A stretch of DNA of 64,000 nt from an uncultured Pelagibacteraceae bacterium (lineage in GTDB: Bacteria; Pseudomonadota; Alphaproteobacteria; Pelagibacterales; Pelagibacteraceae): the NCBI GenBank assembly GCA_902570125.1, contig CACFXK010000001.1:124001-188000 (forward strand), in the 5' to 3' direction. The position numbers and the translations under genes are program-made. Each line of letters opens with the position of its first letter. Positions within the stretch are counted from its first letter, which is position 1. The notes below the pieces were generated by a model. That model saw only the letters and a list, made by a program, of their open reading frames with translations. It ran no database searches and had not been told where the DNA came from. Of this stretch, positions 2,976 to 64,000 are shown in pieces.

Positions 2976-4085
2976 CTAAATGAAAGGTAAATCACAAACT
3001 TTTCCATCAAAATCAGAGCCATTTATATTGATTTTAAAGGATTTTGAAGTCTCAAAGTGTGGTTTGTTAATCATTGCAATCCCAATGACTTGTTTAAAAG
3101 TTGGATTATAACAACCAGATCTCAATTCTCCAATTACATTATTATCTTCGTCTACTAGATCCATTGAGCCATTAACACTTATTTCCTTGGCATCAATTTT
3201 TACTCCCATAAGTTTTTTTTTAATTCCTTCAGCTTTAATTTTTTTCAGTTTTTCTTTACCTAAAAAATCAATATCACTATCTATATTTACATACTTATCA
3301 AAACCACATTCATATGGATTATCTCCATTGTCCATATCATTACCATGGGAAAGTAAACCACTCTCAATACGTTCGATAAGGTTTGGTCCACCTGGTCTAA
3401 TATTGAATTCCTTACCAATTTCAAAAAGATGATCATATAGTTTTAAACCTGAATCGTTGTGTTCCATATAAATTTCATAGCCACCTTGTTTAGACCATCC
3501 AGACTTTGCAATAAGATGTTTATCTCCACCAAATTCAAAATAATCAAAACCGAAAAATTTTAAATTTACAATTTTTTCTCCAAAAACTTTTTCCATTAAT
3601 TTAAATGATTTTGGTCCTTGTACTGCCATTATATCAACATCAGGTTCAGAAATTTTTACATCAAATTTATTTCCAATCGCTAATCCTTTGGCAAATAGAA
3701 TTACATCTGAGTCAGCTAAAGAGACCCACCACCTATTTTCATTTAATCTTAGAACTACAGGATCATTAATTAAACCTGCATTATCATCAATGATAGGGCA
3801 ATAATAACATCTTCCATCTTTGGATTTTGATAAATCTCTGCAAGTCATCAATTGAACTAATTTAGCTGAATCTTTACCAGAAATTTCAACTTGTCTTTCA
3901 GCAGCAACATCCCAAATCTGAACATGCTCTTTTAAGTGATGATAAGCATCTTCTACAGAACCAAATGCTGCTGGCAGCAACATATGATTATATATAGTAT
4001 AAGCAGTTACACCCTGTTTTTCAATTCTAGAGGTGTATGGTGTACCTCTAAGTCTTCTTGATTTTGCTATTAAAAAAGTTTTCAT
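2976..4085 (-). CDS. dmdA: Dimethylsulfoniopropionate (DMSP) demethylase DmdA
   Basis: Tetrahydrofolate-dependent demethylase of the GcvT fold that converts DMSP to methylmercaptopropionate and passes a methyl group to THF. The protein is 369 aa, the length of the Pelagibacter enzyme as I recall it. The N-terminal segment ([19 protein letters not shown], then [12 protein letters not shown]) and the LPFI C-terminus look like SAR11 DmdA and not like glycine-cleavage GcvT. No other glycine cleavage genes are adjacent. The two genes immediately upstream are the expected DmdB and DmdC, which strongly supports DMSP function over a generic aminomethyltransferase. Confidence 0.92.
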
Positions 4086-5766: not shown

Positions 5767-7530
5767 CTAATTAAATTTGTAATTCATAATATAATTACTT
5801 CCAGTTGTTGCAGTAATATAACTACTTTCTATCCTAGGAAGTACTCTATTAAAGAAAAAGTTGGCTGTTTGAATTTTGTCCTCATAAAAATCTTTATTAC
5901 TCTCATATTCTTTGAAGGAAACTTCTAGAACCTTTAACCAAGCATGCCCAGTTGCAACTAAACCTAGAACTTTTAAATAGTCATTACAGGCTCCGCTTGC
6001 ATCTTCTGGAGAATTTTTTATCTTTTCCTTCATCCAATCAGTAAATTTTGATAAAATATCAATATGATAGTTAAGTTGTTTTACAAAAGGTTCGGCTTTT
6101 TTGTCAGTAATTTTAATCTCGTCTTTAACTAAGTTTAGATAGTTTTCAATAATATCACCATTTTTGTTGATTAATTTTCTGAAAACTAAGTCGGCAGCTT
6201 GAACAGAATTTGTTCCCTCATAAATAGGTGTAATTCTATTGTCTCTATAGAATTGTTCAATACCTTGATCTTTCGTAAATCCATATCCTCCATGAATTTG
6301 CATTGCCTCACTTGTTATCTCCATTGCATTATCTGTAAAAAGTGATTTAACAACTGGGGTCATTAATGAAACAAGATCTGAAGCTTCTTGTTTTATTTTT
6401 TCATCAGAATGATTTAAGCTAACTTCAATTTGTTGAGATAGCCAGAAACTCAAGGCTCTTTGTCCCTCTATCATAGACTTCATGCTCAGGAGTGACCGTC
6501 TAATATCAACGTGATCAATAATGAAATCTGCACCATTGTTAGATTTTGAATTAAAAGCCTTACCTTGTTTTCTTTCTTTGGCATAAGTAAGAGAATTTTG
6601 GTATGCAATTTCAGAAATACCTAATCCTTGAATCCCCACAATAATTCTTTCCAAATTCATCATTGTGAACATAGAGTTAAGGCCCTTGTTTTTAGGTCCT
6701 ATCATATAACCAACAGCATCATCAAAATTTAACACGCACGTTGCAGATCCTTTAATACCCATTTTGTTTTCAATTGAACCTGTTGAAACACCATTTCTTG
6801 GCCCAACTGATCCATCTTTATTTAAAACAAATTTAGGAACTAAAAATAAACTAATACCTTTTGTTCCTGCTGGTGAGTCTGTTGATCGAGCTAATACTAA
6901 ATGAATAATATTTTCTGTTAAATCTTGATCGCCAGAAGTTATAAAAATTTTTTGACCACTAATTTTATAAGTTCCGTCATTTTGATCTACTGCTTTTGTT
7001 TTTAGAAGACCTAAGTCTGTTCCACATACTGGTTCTGTTAAACACATTGTGCCACTCCATTTACCCTCGACCATTTTTGGCAAATAAGTATTTTTTATCT
7101 CATCATCAGCATGCCTTAACAAACAGTTATATGCTCCAATTGTTAATTCACTGTAAAGTTTAAAAGATAAGCTCGCAGATGATAACATTTCGTCAAAGAA
7201 AGTACTCACTGTTTTCGGCATTCCTTGACCACCATATTTTGGATCACAAGATAAAGAAATCCATCCATCCTCTATAAATTTTTGATACGCTTCCTTATAT
7301 CCTGGAGGTGTTCTAACCACACCATTTTCTAAAACAGCTGGCGTTTCATCTCCACTTTTTGCAAGAGGTAAGATTAAGTTTTGAGTAATTTTTGCTGCTT
7401 CATCTAAAATATCTTTAACTAATTCTGTATTAACTTCTTTATATTTCTCAATTTCATTATATTTTTTATTGTTCCTCAATTTATCAAAGAGAAACATCAT
7501 ATCATCTACAGGTGCGTTATAAGTTGGCAT
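5767..7530 (-). CDS. dmdC: Methylmercaptopropionyl-CoA dehydrogenase DmdC (acyl-CoA dehydrogenase)
   Basis: FAD acyl-CoA dehydrogenase, 587 aa, longer than the ~380 aa of classical enzymes because of a C-terminal extension typical of the DmdC/AcdA group. It would oxidise methylmercaptopropionyl-CoA to the acryloyl form. Seen: the N-terminal MPTYNAPVDDMMFLF segment common in this subfamily, the flavin-binding segments CLTEPVCGTDLG and ISGQKIFITSGD, and the region MQIHGGYGFTKDQGIEQFYRDNRITPIYEGT, of which the last part marks the active site. It is the first gene of the dmdC-dmdB-dmdA run and begins 26 bases after leuB. A DmdD or AcuH hydratase is not seen in the window. Confidence 0.88.
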   Translation of the reverse strand: MPTYNAPVDDMMFLFDKLRNNKKYNEIEKYKEVNTELVKDILDEAAKITQNLILPLAKSGDETPAVLENGVVRTPPGYKEAYQKFIEDGWISLSCDPKYGGQGMPKTVSTFFDEMLSSASLSFKLYSELTIGAYNCLLRHADDEIKNTYLPKMVEGKWSGTMCLTEPVCGTDLGLLKTKAVDQNDGTYKISGQKIFITSGDQDLTENIIHLVLARSTDSPAGTKGISLFLVPKFVLNKDGSVGPRNGVSTGSIENKMGIKGSATCVLNFDDAVGYMIGPKNKGLNSMFTMMNLERIIVGIQGLGISEIAYQNSLTYAKERKQGKAFNSKSNNGADFIIDHVDIRRSLLSMKSMIEGQRALSFWLSQQIEVSLNHSDEKIKQEASDLVSLMTPVVKSLFTDNAMEITSEAMQIHGGYGFTKDQGIEQFYRDNRITPIYEGTNSVQAADLVFRKLINKNGDIIENYLNLVKDEIKITDKKAEPFVKQLNYHIDILSKFTDWMKEKIKNSPEDASGACNDYLKVLGLVATGHAWLKVLEVSFKEYESNKDFYEDKIQTANFFFNRVLPRIESSYITATTGSNYIMNYKFN

Positions 7531-7556
7531 AAATATACTTTAGAATAAATGTTTAA

Positions 7557-8663
7557 TTATTGCAATTTTGAAATTATCGCATCTCCCATTACTGATGTTG
7601 ATACTTCTTTCATTCCTTTTGATATTATATCCTTAGTTCTAAGACCCTCATCAAGCACACCTTGAACAGCTTTTTCTAAACTATCTGCCTCTTTATCTAG
7701 GTCTAAAGAATATCTTAAAGCCATTGCAAAACTAAGGATTGTTGCTATTGGATTGGCAATACCTTGACCTGCTATATCGGGTGCTGATCCATGAACTGGC
7801 TCATATAAAGATCTCATATTACCATTTTTATCTTTGGCTCCAAGAGACGCAGACGGCAAAAGCCCTAGAGAACCAGTCAACATTGCAGCTTCATCTGATA
7901 ACATGTCACCAAAAAGATTATCTGTTACTATCACATCAAATTGTTTGGGATTTCTAACTAACTGCATTGCACAGTTATCTGCTAACATATGTTTTAATTC
8001 TACATCACTATATTCTTTTTCATGAATTGCTTGAACTTCTTCTTTCCATAATTGACCTGCCTCCATGACATTCGACTTTTCACAGGAAGTGACTTTATTA
8101 TTCCTTTTTCTGGCTAGATCAAATGCAACACGGGCTACTCTCTCAATTTCGCTAGTAGTATAGACATGAGTGTTAATTCCTTTTCTTTCGCCATTATCAA
8201 TTGGTTTAATCCCTCTAGGTTCACCAAAGTAAATCCCACCCGTTAATTCCCTGACAAAAAGAATATCTAAATTAGAAACAAATTCAGGCTTTAAACTTGA
8301 GGCATCAACAAGTTGTTTGAAACAAATTGCAGGTCTCAAATTTGCAAATAATTTTAATTCTTTTCTTAATTTTAATAGAGCTCTCTCTGGTTTTTTTGAA
8401 AAATCAATATTATCCCATTTTGGTCCACCAACAGCACCTAATATTACTGCAGCGCTTTCTTGTGCCTTGTAAAAAGCTTCATCAGTTATTGGAGTTCCAT
8501 GTTTATCATAAGCAGCACCTCCAACCAAATCTTGGTCAATATCAAAATCCAAGGATTTACTTGAGTTAAACCATTCAATTATTTTTTTGACTTCAGCAAT
8601 TACCTCGGGTCCGATACCATCCCCTGGTAATAATAAAATTTTTCTTTTTTTAATTTTAATCAT
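7557..8663 (-). CDS. leuB: 3-isopropylmalate dehydrogenase
   Basis: Third enzyme of leucine synthesis, an NAD-dependent oxidative decarboxylase. Seen: the N-terminal [13 protein letters not shown] motif, the substrate arginines in [17 protein letters not shown], the catalytic [13 protein letters not shown] segment, the [12 protein letters not shown] metal-binding Asp pair and the [14 protein letters not shown] nucleotide motif. I start at the ATG at 8661-8663 (368 aa). An in-frame ATG 16 codons upstream lies inside leuD and would add an unconserved basic stretch. With the chosen start, leuB overlaps leuD by 8 bases. Order leuC-leuD-leuB. Confidence 0.95.
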
Positions 8664-61674: not shown

Positions 61675-61749
61675 TGGAGCGGGCAATGGGACTCGAACCC
61701 ACGACCTTCTCGTTGGCAACGAGACGCTCTACCACTGAGCTATGCCCGC
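61675..61749 (-). tRNA. tRNA-Gly (GCC)
   Basis: All arms fold as a standard tRNA: acceptor GCGGGCA/TGCCCGC, D arm with GCTC/GAGC, anticodon arm TCTCG-TTGCCAA-CGAGA, T arm GTGGG-TTCGAGT-CCCAT. The anticodon GCC (61,715-61,717) reads glycine GGC/GGU. The 3' CCA is encoded (61,675-61,677), with discriminator at 61,678. It has a near-perfect promoter on the right side. Its anticodon-arm sequence is repeated at the end of the window, suggesting a recombinase target. Confidence 0.98.
61709..61727. repeat. Left copy of tRNA-derived direct repeat (candidate att core)
   Basis: This 19-bp sequence covers the anticodon stem-loop and four flanking bases. It recurs without change at 63,982-64,000. The first 15 bases are a perfect inverted repeat by nature of the stem-loop, but the trailing ACGC fixes the direct orientation. 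Bases just before it differ between copies. Confidence 0.85.
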
Positions 61750-61762
61750 TTGTTAAAAAATC

Positions 61763-61791
61763 ATTATAGTTAGCGGTTTTTATAAATGCAA
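61763..61791 (-). promoter_or_regulatory. Promoter of tRNA-Gly
   Basis: On the minus strand TTGCAT (61,786-61,791) and a perfect TATAAT (61,763-61,768) are 17 bases apart, placing the start about 6-8 bases before the tRNA 5' end. The promoter lies on the side of the putative cassette, to the right of the tRNA. Confidence 0.75.
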
Positions 61792-61824
61792 GTATTAGTT
61801 AAAATAGTAAAATTTAACACCAAC

Positions 61825-61845
61825 TGTGTCGTGAGTGTGCCGAAA
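61825..61845. repeat. Left copy of 21-bp arm-like repeat
   Basis: TGTGTCG, six bases, TGCCGAAA. The copy at 63,907-63,927 matches at 18 of 21 positions in the same orientation. It ends 3 bases before the ATPase stop codon and lies 97 bases right of the tRNA-derived core. Candidate integrase arm-type binding site. Confidence 0.75.
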
Positions 61846-61847
61846 TT

Positions 61848-63698
61848 TTAATCAATTACATTTAAACTTTTATCTACCTTTAATTTATTTTTAATTGCTC
61901 TATTAGCTCTTTCAATGATGTTGGACCTAACTGATACAGCTGTAGTTAACGCCTCTTCTGACAAAGCCTTTTCTACATCTTCAGCAGCCCATTTAGGTCT
62001 TCCAACTAATTGGTTTGCACCTGCAACCACTTCCATTAATTGTTGGGTAAACTGTTCTTCAACACATTGTACTATAATTTTAGGAGCTTGATTATTTAGT
62101 TTTCCAAAAGTTTCCAGAAAGCTTTCTCTAACTGTTTGATAACCACTAAAATCCTTATTGGCCTTAACTAAATTTAAAGATTTATGATAACAGGCGGCTC
62201 TATCTACCATTTCATTTGGATCTCTTGTTCCATCCGCAACACTAACCCATTTAACTTCTGGGTATGGATCTGCCTCTACTCTAAAACCTTTAACCTTAGA
62301 TTTTTTTTCATACATAGACAACATTTCTCTTATTGCTCCGGTATTTGCACCAGCGGAGGAAGCCTTTCTGTCCCTTTTATTATCACCATCTAACAAATTA
62401 CCTGAGAATGATTCTATTTCTTCTTCTGAAATAAATTCACTTCCTGACGGATTTTTTTTATACTTACCTAATTTAAAAAATCTAAGTAAGTCTTTTAATT
62501 TATCCTTTAAATTATCAGAGTAATTATCGCTTCCGAGTTTATCTGCAGCCTCTTTTTCAAATTCTTCAATTTCTTTAGGCATTTTAGATTTAAACTCGTT
62601 TTGCCATTTTTCCCAAGGGAGTACCGAACCATCTCTACCAACTACGTGTCTTCTTTGAGTATCCTGTTCATAATTGCTACCTGGTTCGATTAATAAGGCT
62701 ACATTTTTAAAGCTAAAAATTAAACCAAAGTTTGTAGCTATATTTCCACTCCCATAGGTCAAATCAAAGACTTCATCATCTTTAACTAATCCACATTGAC
62801 CTACCAAAAACTCTCTAGAATTAGTTTTTCTTTCAGGATTTAAAATCCACCAATGTGCCTTTGCATCAGATAATTCAACTGTTCCTGACTTATTTTTGAG
62901 TCTATTTCGATCAAGTGAATACTTATGCCCTTTGACAAATCTTAAACAATTTGATTTAGCAGGATCATTTATTGAGTTCTTTTTTTCATTAAATACAGCC
63001 TTATCAAGCTCATAGTAATATCCCGTTCTTACCTTCAATTCTATACCATCTGGAATATTAAAGAATCTCGTATTTAAATATGACAATTGCCAAAATTCTT
63101 TGGTGCCTCTTACTCCCTCAGGTAACTGCATAGTATCCTCTTCTGGTTTTTTCCCAAATAAGGTAACTCTAGTACCATGATCTTTAATTTCAGCAGGCTT
63201 CACTTCATCAGTTATTTCTAAATAATTTAAATATTTTCCATCTTCATTTTTGAATCTTTCCATACAGTAGGTGCCTAAAGTTGGATCATAATAAATTAAT
63301 ACCATAAACCCTTTTCCATTTTGCCAAGACTCATATTGTAATCCTGCAGGATTTCTTGAGAGAGCACTTATTTTTGCCCCAACTCCATAATTTATATGTT
63401 CTGATTTAACATCTCCAGATGAAGCTAATTGTGATACTAGTTTTTCCATTTGTTCTGGAGACATTCCAGTACCGTTATCTATAAAACTAATTTTCAAATA
63501 TTTTTTATCTGAAAAATGCCAATTGACCCAATTTGCATCGACTACGATGGTACCTTTTTTTTCTTTAGTTTTTTGAATTGCCTCAACTGAGTTTTTAACA
63601 AACTCTCTTAAGAATTGATCTGGTAGACAGTCTCTACCAAGGTTGTTTATGAATTGTGTAAGTCCATGAGGATTTACACCGACAGGTGTTTTTTCCAT
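61848..63698 (-). CDS. GHKL (Hsp90/MORC/MutL-like) ATPase protein
   Basis: 616 aa from the ATG at 63,696-63,698, chosen because GGAGG lies six bases before it; an ATG ten codons upstream lacks such a site. The N-terminal Bergerat fold is complete: LREFVKNSVEA (Glu32, Asn36), IDNGTGM (Asp74, Gly76, Gly78), NYGVGAKISAL (residues 103-113) and HGTRVTLFG (Gly175-Thr176). It lacks histidine-kinase phosphoacceptor features. A middle domain follows, then a charged linker (about 440-475) and a C-terminal domain (about 480-610) of unknown type. Such ATPases occur in chaperones, MutL, MORC and prokaryotic conflict systems. As sole gene of a tRNA-flanked cassette, a defence role is plausible but unproven. 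Confidence 0.88.
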   Translation of the reverse strand: MEKTPVGVNPHGLTQFINNLGRDCLPDQFLREFVKNSVEAIQKTKEKKGTIVVDANWVNWHFSDKKYLKISFIDNGTGMSPEQMEKLVSQLASSGDVKSEHINYGVGAKISALSRNPAGLQYESWQNGKGFMVLIYYDPTLGTYCMERFKNEDGKYLNYLEITDEVKPAEIKDHGTRVTLFGKKPEEDTMQLPEGVRGTKEFWQLSYLNTRFFNIPDGIELKVRTGYYYELDKAVFNEKKNSINDPAKSNCLRFVKGHKYSLDRNRLKNKSGTVELSDAKAHWWILNPERKTNSREFLVGQCGLVKDDEVFDLTYGSGNIATNFGLIFSFKNVALLIEPGSNYEQDTQRRHVVGRDGSVLPWEKWQNEFKSKMPKEIEEFEKEAADKLGSDNYSDNLKDKLKDLLRFFKLGKYKKNPSGSEFISEEEIESFSGNLLDGDNKRDRKASSAGANTGAIREMLSMYEKKSKVKGFRVEADPYPEVKWVSVADGTRDPNEMVDRAACYHKSLNLVKANKDFSGYQTVRESFLETFGKLNNQAPKIIVQCVEEQFTQQLMEVVAGANQLVGRPKWAAEDVEKALSEEALTTAVSVRSNIIERANRAIKNKLKVDKSLNVID

Positions 63699-63714
63699 TT
63701 TACCTCCAAAAGTT

Positions 63715-63736
63715 AACGGTTTAAACAACGGTTAAA
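63715..63736 (-). promoter_or_regulatory. Direct repeats upstream of the GHKL ATPase gene
   Basis: AACGGTT occurs at 63,715 and again at 63,727, 12 bases apart, each followed by an A-rich stretch, just upstream of the ribosome site. The spacing of about one helical turn suggests an operator bound by a dimer on one face. No regulator gene is in view. Confidence 0.4.
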
Positions 63737-63811
63737 GTTTACCGGCTTGTAAAATTCACTTTTAATGTTTGGGGCAAAAGCGCGAAACATAATTATGAAC
63801 TATACAGATTA

Positions 63812-63839
63812 AATATAATTGACCATTGAAATTATTCAA
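63812..63839 (-). promoter_or_regulatory. Candidate promoter of the GHKL ATPase gene
   Basis: On the minus strand TTGAAT (63,834-63,839) and TATATT (63,812-63,817) are separated by 16 bases. Transcription would begin about 105 bases before the start codon, upstream of the AACGGTT repeats. Confidence 0.35.
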
Positions 63840-63906
63840 TAGCAATATTTTAAAATTTCATATCACATTTTTAGAATAAGATACTATTAAGACGTGTATT
63901 TTTAAA

Positions 63907-63927
63907 TGTGTCGATAGAGTGCCGAAA
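63907..63927. repeat. Right copy of 21-bp arm-like repeat
   Basis: TGTGTCG, six bases, TGCCGAAA, with 18 of 21 positions shared with 61,825-61,845 in the same orientation. It ends 54 bases before the right tRNA-derived core. Confidence 0.75.
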
Positions 63928-63981
63928 ATTACTTAACGTTGAGAAAGTTAAAAGTTTACAAAGATAAAAAGATATGGCTGC

Positions 63982-64000
63982 CTCGTTGGCAACGAGACGC
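63982..64000. repeat. Right copy of tRNA-derived direct repeat (candidate att core, cut by window edge)
   Basis: Identical over 19 bases to the tRNA-Gly anticodon arm and running to the last base of the window, so the true repeat may be longer and may include the 5' half of a tRNA-Gly. The sequence just before it shows no tRNA T-arm, so it is not the 3' half of a complete second tRNA. Confidence 0.85.

Follow-up and report, generated by a model that had tools for sequence, protein, structure and literature searches.

An integrase-less gene cassette, probably mobilised in trans, at tRNA-Gly of SAR11 bacteria

Introduction

Elements that keep attachment-type repeats and have no integration module are known as cis-mobilizable elements (CIMEs) and from the ssrA islands of Dehalococcoides; the available parts of these accounts describe them as decayed, or as possibly mobilised with an adjacent island (PMC5704250, PMC3146451). 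Here we describe a locus of related appearance in a 64,000-nucleotide stretch of DNA (the window; positions 124001–188000 of contig C1 in genome G000, GenBank CACFXK010000001.1) from an uncultured Pelagibacteraceae bacterium of the SAR11 group, where a single gene for a GHKL ATPase lies between direct repeats of one half of a tRNA-Gly(GCC) gene. We propose, with a probability of roughly 0.8, that this is a non-autonomous gene cassette which lacks an integrase, carries a complete attP-like site and is moved in trans by a tyrosine recombinase that targets tRNA-Gly. A further 2,988 bases to the right of the window were read. Genomes, loci and contigs are cited by handles beginning with G, L and C.

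Several other systems resemble this locus in part. Additive flexible genomic islands with repeated tRNA fragments have been described at the tRNA-Lys of Methylopumilus and in Actinomarinales (PMC10872708, PMC7771536), and the tycheposon has a tyrosine recombinase of its own (PMC10872708). In Pelagibacterales, prophages are described as rare (PMC7771536), and a 2025 analysis of a collection of single-cell genomes reported the transfer of phnCDEubiE between Pelagibacter and HIMB59, the one gene set that it found shared between orders at less than 2% divergence; its available text speaks of adjacent tRNA genes and tyrosine recombinases without mention of a cassette (PMC12416821). Integrase-less elements flanked by repeats (CIMEs), cassettes bounded by tRNA repeats and the phnCDEubiE transfer are therefore already known.

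A family of cassettes at tRNA-Gly

A first-pass annotation of the window had noted a perfect 19-bp repeat of the tRNA anticodon arm at both ends of the locus. The repeat is real and perfect; its length is 46 bp, the right copy (C1:187982–188027) being cut by the window end. It comprises the 5′ half of tRNA-Gly(GCC) plus 5 nt, and the second copy lies 2,273 bp to the right of the first. ARAGORN found no tRNA at the right copy, which is thus a truncated 5′ half and not an ordinary second tRNA-Gly, the possibility that had been raised beforehand against the element, and a DNA search with this region gave no further complete tRNA-Gly(GCC) in the genome's own assembly, which is 86% complete. Just inside each end, also as annotated, is an imperfect direct repeat (61822–61848 and 63904–63930, 81% alike), which holds the arm-like motif GTGTCG(N3)GTGTGTCGA or a near form of it. 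The single ATPase gene and the absence of a recombinase between the repeats were likewise borne out.

Native-type tRNA upstream sequence follows directly beyond the right repeat. In relatives this same region adjoins an intact tRNA, being 94% (G131), 93% (G087) and 91% (G080) identical to G000 over 96 bases, which in G000 begin at the right repeat. These empty sites and the truncated right tRNA half support the annotated passenger element without an integrase, now one member of a family. The alternative suggestion, that it is the first unit of a tandem array, fails in the 3 kb readable to the right, where no further unit was found.

Searching 399 genomes of the genus with the left end of the cassette gave 55 genomes with E≤0.001, of which 15 were strong (E<1e-30, G000 included) and 40 weak. 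Twelve cassettes lie between two exact cores: ten of 1647 bp, one of 1689 bp and the 2273-bp GHKL cassette of G000. The other eleven all carry the same 416-amino acid beta-propeller protein with a signal-peptide-like start, and a propeller cassette of exactly 1647 bp occurs at 14 named loci. Beyond the repeat, the left ends of the G000 and G047 cassettes agree at 88 of 94 positions; their right ends are compared in Table 1. A chance origin of the GHKL locus is rejected, since other genomes have an almost identical left end at this tRNA, where it borders a different gene.

The arm–core–arm spacing that had been predicted on joining the ends recurs in the sister cassettes, with 117 bp from core to arm and 74–75 bp from arm to core in the 11 cassettes measured (the spacing table omits G120 and two tRNA-Thr loci, G016 and G114). 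In the 399 genomes the arm pattern has 29 matches in 23 genomes, 27 of them beside tRNA-Gly(GCC) or tRNA-Thr(TGT) at near-constant spacing; the reversed pattern, used as a control, has none. Among named genomes it was found in 61 stretches, of which 29 are at tRNA-Gly, 13 at tRNA-Thr, 6 at chromosomal propeller loci and 13 unrelated (12 by their high content of guanine plus cytosine (GC), one from a gut bacterium). Among the named loci, L204 and L215 are two ends of one contig, and several come from genomes that also bear G handles. By eye the left end occurs in two types, one of which resembles the native tRNA upstream region. Accretion may occur at tRNA-Gly too, since sequence like the cassette left end lies beyond the right repeat in G279, G120 and G256.

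Recent transfer and exchange of cargo

We compared 7 of the 11 propeller-cassette genomes in 21 pairs, taking the last 570 nt of a nearby gene, presumably purH, as the chromosomal counterpart; G047, G279, G120 and G152 were dropped for a short purH piece, indels or cassette-like sequence past the right repeat. Mean identity was 97.7% in the cassette, 74% in purH, and 62% and 61% in the 300-bp flanks, against a shuffled baseline of 60%. Six of the 21 pairs have cassettes that are 99.8–99.9% identical with purH at 71–75%; values inside the cassette and in purH are 99.8% and 71% for G361–G387, and 99.9% and 72% for G314–G256. At the borders, in the 20 pairs with purH below 85%, identity starts from 1.0 on each side. 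To the left it is down to 0.38 within 10 bp of the tRNA; to the right, past the repeat, it passes through 0.57 and 0.45 to about 0.3, in native tRNA upstream sequence that is conserved in part. Because the cassettes are this alike while purH has diverged and the flanks are near the shuffled background, we conclude that the propeller cassettes have been transferred recently and site-specifically between diverged SAR11 genomes.

Other genes occupy the same ends. L164 and L186 hold 3.9-kb cassettes (3928 bp in L186) with a phosphonate-binding protein, ATPase and permease plus a methyltransferase (phnCDE plus methyltransferase); PhnE scores above its NCBIfam cut-off, PhnC just below, and PhnD is supported through Pfam only. 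Both cassettes have nearly the same two ends as the propeller type; the right repeat of each has a single mismatch. L186 is the Pelagibacter genome AG-899-N21 of the phnCDEubiE study (PMC12416821), and its phn genes and methyltransferase are the tRNA-Gly cassette. Phage_integrase matches in that genome fall on contigs C24 and C9 only, the cassette contig being NODE_6, and no integrase was found in the 8-kb cassette locus of L186. Among further tRNA-Gly cargo are a sulfotransferase in L182 and a trypsin-like protein in L212. The integrase-less L112 holds a CII-like regulator; by eye, proteins encoded beside it read like three small proteins of L154 (IMGVR_UViG_3300017731_002668), an IMG/VR element that bears an integrase and a tRNA-Thr half. 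The propeller DNA is 65.6–68.3% alike, over 31–42% of the cassette query, to genes annotated as alkaline phosphatase in nine Synechococcus phage records, and the protein's choice-of-anchor I match passes the Pfam cut-off and fails that of NCBIfam.

The propeller gene is also found in the chromosome away from tRNA genes (L110, 1889–3225, G000:C12; L111, 9400–10736, G353:C1), where it adjoins two conserved genes and one arm motif; the same arm context occurs at six named loci. The cassette may have arisen from such a locus, or the locus may be an insertion that has decayed. L182 (PAGT01000030.1) is labelled as a Flavobacteriales metagenome-assembled genome, yet has a GC content of 0.25, SAR11 gene order and a tRNA-Gly cassette, and is probably misbinned or misnamed.

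A second site at tRNA-Thr

Units at tRNA-Thr(TGT) carry the 3′ half of the tRNA and are flanked by a near form of the arm motif seen at tRNA-Gly. Both arms were found in 6 of 10 units; in these, core and arm are 103–113 bp apart on one side, and the other arm lies 78 bp ahead of the core. G106 has five tRNA-Thr halves and hence four tandem units, one of which has recognised arms. The cargo includes an MmeI-like type IIG restriction enzyme and a helicase in G016, in a unit without a recognised arm, a NucS-like protein that matches a PADLOC candidate family (L195), and pseudopilin-like and lipoprotein-like genes. One 4-kb unit of G106 (L143, 5608–9612 in oriented coordinates) consists mostly of pseudopilin-like genes whose products start with a prepilin-type N-terminus.

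Candidate source of the integrase

Scans of cassette loci with six integrase queries detected no integrase frame. In G000 the only Phage_integrase match found is a 312-amino acid frame on a different contig, and 6 of the 22 genomes checked, which are incomplete assemblies, gave no such match. Integrase-bearing elements do occur at the same tRNA. One in G124 spans about 8.4 kb. At E≤1e-8, an integrase of its kind was found in 11 genomes out of 250; G000 is not among them, and in G010 one occurs alongside a propeller cassette. A second, L151, is a satellite-like 6-kb IMG/VR contig with a tRNA-Gly half, an integrase whose frame runs over the contig ends, a terminase small subunit and an AAA protein. 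The only relative of the L151 integrase in IMG/VR is itself, and L151 has no match in phage records.

When the right end of the G047 cassette was compared with the integrase-side ends of such elements, G124 and L151 scored 20 each, a value reached in 0 of 2000 shuffles. A third Gly-targeting element, G180, gave p 0.03; of nine non-Gly elements one gave p 0.03 and the others 0.1 or more, their segments being placed by distance from the integrase and not by a core. In G124 this comparison starts within tRNA sequence. When the 14 leading, tRNA-like positions were left out, the G124 score was still reached in 0 of 5000 shuffles, L151 gave p 0.013 and the nine others p 0.16 or more. We therefore regard the integrase of a tRNA-Gly element as the best helper candidate, since the propeller right end resembles that of G124 strongly and that of L151 less so.

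Two further IMG/VR contigs were set aside: L152, in which an exact tRNA-Gly half lies on a 43-kb contig with no integrase within the 4.3 kb examined, and L153, a 2.2-kb stretch with a tRNA-Thr half. L223 (IMGVR_UViG_3300025024_000007, GC 0.45) has a run of GTGTCGATA-type repeats with an arm motif at 3590–3608 and an integrase-like frame at 6640–7740, some 3 kb away; L220 (GC 0.29) likewise has a motif run, and both contigs are without tRNA halves. Two more SAR11 integrase genes, L232 and L234, by eye adjoin what appears to be the end of a tmRNA gene.

Cargo and surroundings of the window locus

The tRNA portion in the cassette is the 5′ half, where a 3′ half would be more usual, and insertion exchanges the tRNA upstream region. 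Integration at the 5′ part of a tRNA gene is described as the less frequent case (PMC6563490). A TTGCAT/TATAAT pair with a 17-nt spacer, read by eye, is supplied by the cassette (Table 1) and may serve as a new tRNA promoter; a consensus promoter scan did not list this pair, the first hexamer of which agrees at 3 of 6 positions.

The cargo reading frame encodes 616 amino acids from an ATG preceded by GGAGG. As a 626-amino acid form with a TTG start, the protein matches HATPase_c (E 5e-7) and HATPase_c_3 (E 8e-7), both above their cut-offs. It is 35% identical over 601 aligned positions (96% coverage) to a protein on a 1.3-Mb Caballeronia plasmid, and has no match in phage records, IMG/VR or solved-structure sequences, no PADLOC model match and weak PHROGs matches only (best E 0.067). 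A plasmid search returned seven records, four of them from Agrobacterium or Dinoroseobacter, of which one of each pair was inspected. On the Agrobacterium plasmid, a more distant relative lies directly ahead of GajA and GajB (E 8e-221 and 3e-178); on the Dinoroseobacter plasmid, one gene separates the relative from an annotated ATP-binding protein and a UvrD helicase. A restriction endonuclease lies about 1 kb from the relative on a Rhizobium plasmid, and in one alphaproteobacterium a relative (30% over 206 amino acids) adjoins a UG13 reverse transcriptase. No defence gene was recognised near the relative on the Acidisoma and Caballeronia plasmids. By association, then, the GHKL protein may have a role in defence. 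An AlphaFold2 model made without an alignment had a mean predicted local distance difference test score of 35 and was not used.

To the left of the cassette lie a TPR gene, a pterin-dehydratase-like gene and purH, and to the right a TPR-sulfotransferase gene, a LON-domain gene and a UbiH-like gene. TPR is supported by a profile match; the other names are putative, read from the sequences. A gene order running from purH and pterin dehydratase through tRNA-Gly and variable genes to LON and UbiH recurs in relatives. Among 20 loci from relatives (L040–L059), 15 have an intact tRNA-Gly in this neighbourhood (L041, L044, L045 and L048–L059, some cut by a contig end), and the genomes of these 15 contain no exact arm match. 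L046 carries a sister cassette. No tRNA was seen within the stretch in L040, L042 and L043; L040 is continued by an element that bears an integrase, L043 by a propeller cassette. In L047 (5319–5393, G102) the tRNA-Gly is reversed relative to its usual neighbours, as though a small segment had been inverted. Among 150 other genomes of the genus no close relative of the GHKL protein was found, with two distant matches at 22–23% identity.

Table 1. Features of the tRNA-Gly locus at the right end of the window (window coordinates)
Feature	Position	Strand	Remarks
Intact tRNA-Gly(GCC)	61675–61749	−	ARAGORN; 3′ part chromosomal, 5′ half is the left end of the cassette
Left direct repeat (core)	61709–61754		46 bp, perfect; from the anticodon arm to 5 nt ahead of the tRNA 5′ end
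Putative tRNA promoter from the cassette	61763–61791	−	TATAAT 61763–61768, 17-nt spacer, TTGCAT 61786–61791; by eye
Left arm-like site GTGTCGTGAGTGTGCCGA	61826–61843	+	117 bp from core start
Cargo gene, 616-amino acid GHKL ATPase (HATPase_c)	61848–63698	−	
Shine-Dalgarno-like GGAGG of cargo gene	63703–63707	−	
Right arm-like site GTGTCGATAGAGTGCCGA	63908–63925	+	74 bp ahead of right core
Right end, arm to core	63926–63981		With the arm, 56 of 78 positions match the right end of the G047 cassette
Right direct repeat, first 19 bp	63982–64000		27 bp more past the window, to C1:188027

Discussion

In the mechanism that we propose, the two cassette ends together would form an attP-like site consisting of an arm, a tRNA-Gly anticodon-arm core and a second arm, with one to a few cargo genes carried between the arms. 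A tyrosine recombinase acting in trans, most likely from a tRNA-Gly integrase element, phage satellite or phage like G124 or L151, would excise the cassette as a circle and insert it into the anticodon arm of tRNA-Gly(GCC). Insertion would rebuild the tRNA gene, the cassette giving the 5′ half and a new upstream region. The repeats and arm-like sites would accordingly be expected to function as att sites; the continued mobility of the GHKL cassette, the identity of its helper and the vehicle between cells are further steps that we infer.

A number of observations weigh against this proposal. The GHKL cassette is a single case with a deviating right arm, and its right end is unlike all 12 integrase elements (p at least 0.09, or at least 0.11 without the first 14 positions). 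G180, although Gly-targeting, is not convincingly similar to the propeller right end, its p rising to 0.14 without those positions. Our searches found no integrase element with the same arm sequence: L151 is the only one of the 12 with an arm-like stretch, at p 0.003 before correction for 12 tests. Arm scans of IMG/VR gave 11 contigs in all, none with either tRNA half and ten of them within a GC range of 0.25–0.60, the lowest at 0.29, and two exact cassette-end patterns are absent from that database. Within the family, G381 and G194 are without a second exact core, the right arm was not recognised in G120, arms are absent from 4 of the 10 tRNA-Thr units, and G016 and G114 have one arm each. 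Two comparisons depart from the pattern of near-identical cassettes in diverged backgrounds, G387–G256 with purH at 88% and a left flank at 92%, and G284–G361 with a left flank at 78%. Excision as a circle, finally, is itself an inferred step.

Some of these features would suit a fixed relic, that is, a cis-mobilizable element left immobile after loss of its integrase. Such relics are described in the available accounts (PMC5704250, PMC3146451), the GHKL cassette is solitary and deviates at its right arm and right end, and G381 and G194 indicate that decayed cassettes exist. The near-identity of sister cassettes in six of the 21 pairs despite their diverged purH genes argues the other way, as does the 46-bp repeat, still perfect in the window, and we consider a relic unlikely.

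A second alternative draws on the host's own recombinases. IMEX elements (integrative mobile elements exploiting Xer) are moved by host XerC/XerD, and the sole Phage_integrase match found in G000 has the size expected of a Xer protein. The target here is a tRNA gene, the paired arms point to an integrase that binds arms, the propeller right end resembles that of a tRNA-Gly integrase element, and a Phage_integrase match is missing from the six incomplete assemblies noted above; movement by Xer thus seems very improbable. Spread by homologous recombination of conserved flanks, in line with the core-gene recombination reported for these bacteria (PMC12416821), is the least credible explanation of all, given the collapse of identity at both borders in 20 pairs.

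Beyond the window locus, the chances seem about even that SAR11 harbours a trans-mobilised cassette system, integron-like in effect, in which arm modules at Gly-GCC and Thr-TGT carry interchangeable cargo of a few genes, arrays form at Thr, and the integrase, possibly with particles, comes from tRNA-targeting elements or phage satellites. Accessory genes move in these bacteria despite the rarity of prophages, and the cassettes suggest a concrete vehicle with sequence-defined ends. If the proposal holds, this would be a vehicle for the recent spread of phosphorus-acquisition and anti-phage genes in one of the most abundant groups of ocean bacteria. With these end motifs the gene pool can be searched, and the question of the helper can be tested directly.

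In the literature searched, to which subscription papers were largely external, we found no family of arm-bearing, integrase-less SAR11 cassettes, and the available parts of PMC7318151 and PMC11898729 contain nothing on such cassettes. The shared arm module, the near-fixed geometry, cargo swapping at two tRNA genes and the likeness to the ends of integrase elements were likewise not found in print there.

The nearest parallels are CIMEs and ssrA islands as far as those accounts extend: the G000 locus has attL/attR-type repeats at both ends and no integration or transfer genes, and tandem accretion at an RNA gene is matched by the array-like units at tRNA-Thr in relatives. As to an origin from a complete element, the propeller right end is like that of G124 and less like that of L151, and the GHKL right end is not. 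No adjacent integrated element with which the cassette could move was found in G000, where conserved neighbours stand on both sides (3 kb readable to the right). Unlike CIMEs, the SAR11 cassettes measure 1–4 kb, mostly have both arm sites, share standard ends with swapped cargo and, in the propeller type, are spread across diverged lineages. Additive islands likewise comprise gene cassettes at tRNA genes, with a partial tRNA sequence repeated directly at the borders; the available parts of those accounts give no arm sites, common end modules or link to a helper. Tycheposons and virion-encapsidated satellites are likewise tRNA-targeted marine elements, L151 with its integrase, terminase small subunit and AAA protein being comparable, but the cassettes have no recombinase of their own. 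The small, swappable cargo, the arrays and an integrase acting in trans recall integron cassettes and clusters of attC sites lacking integron integrases (CALINs), as described in the available text of PMC11389934; unlike in integron cassettes, the repeat here is half of a tRNA gene accompanied by arm motifs.

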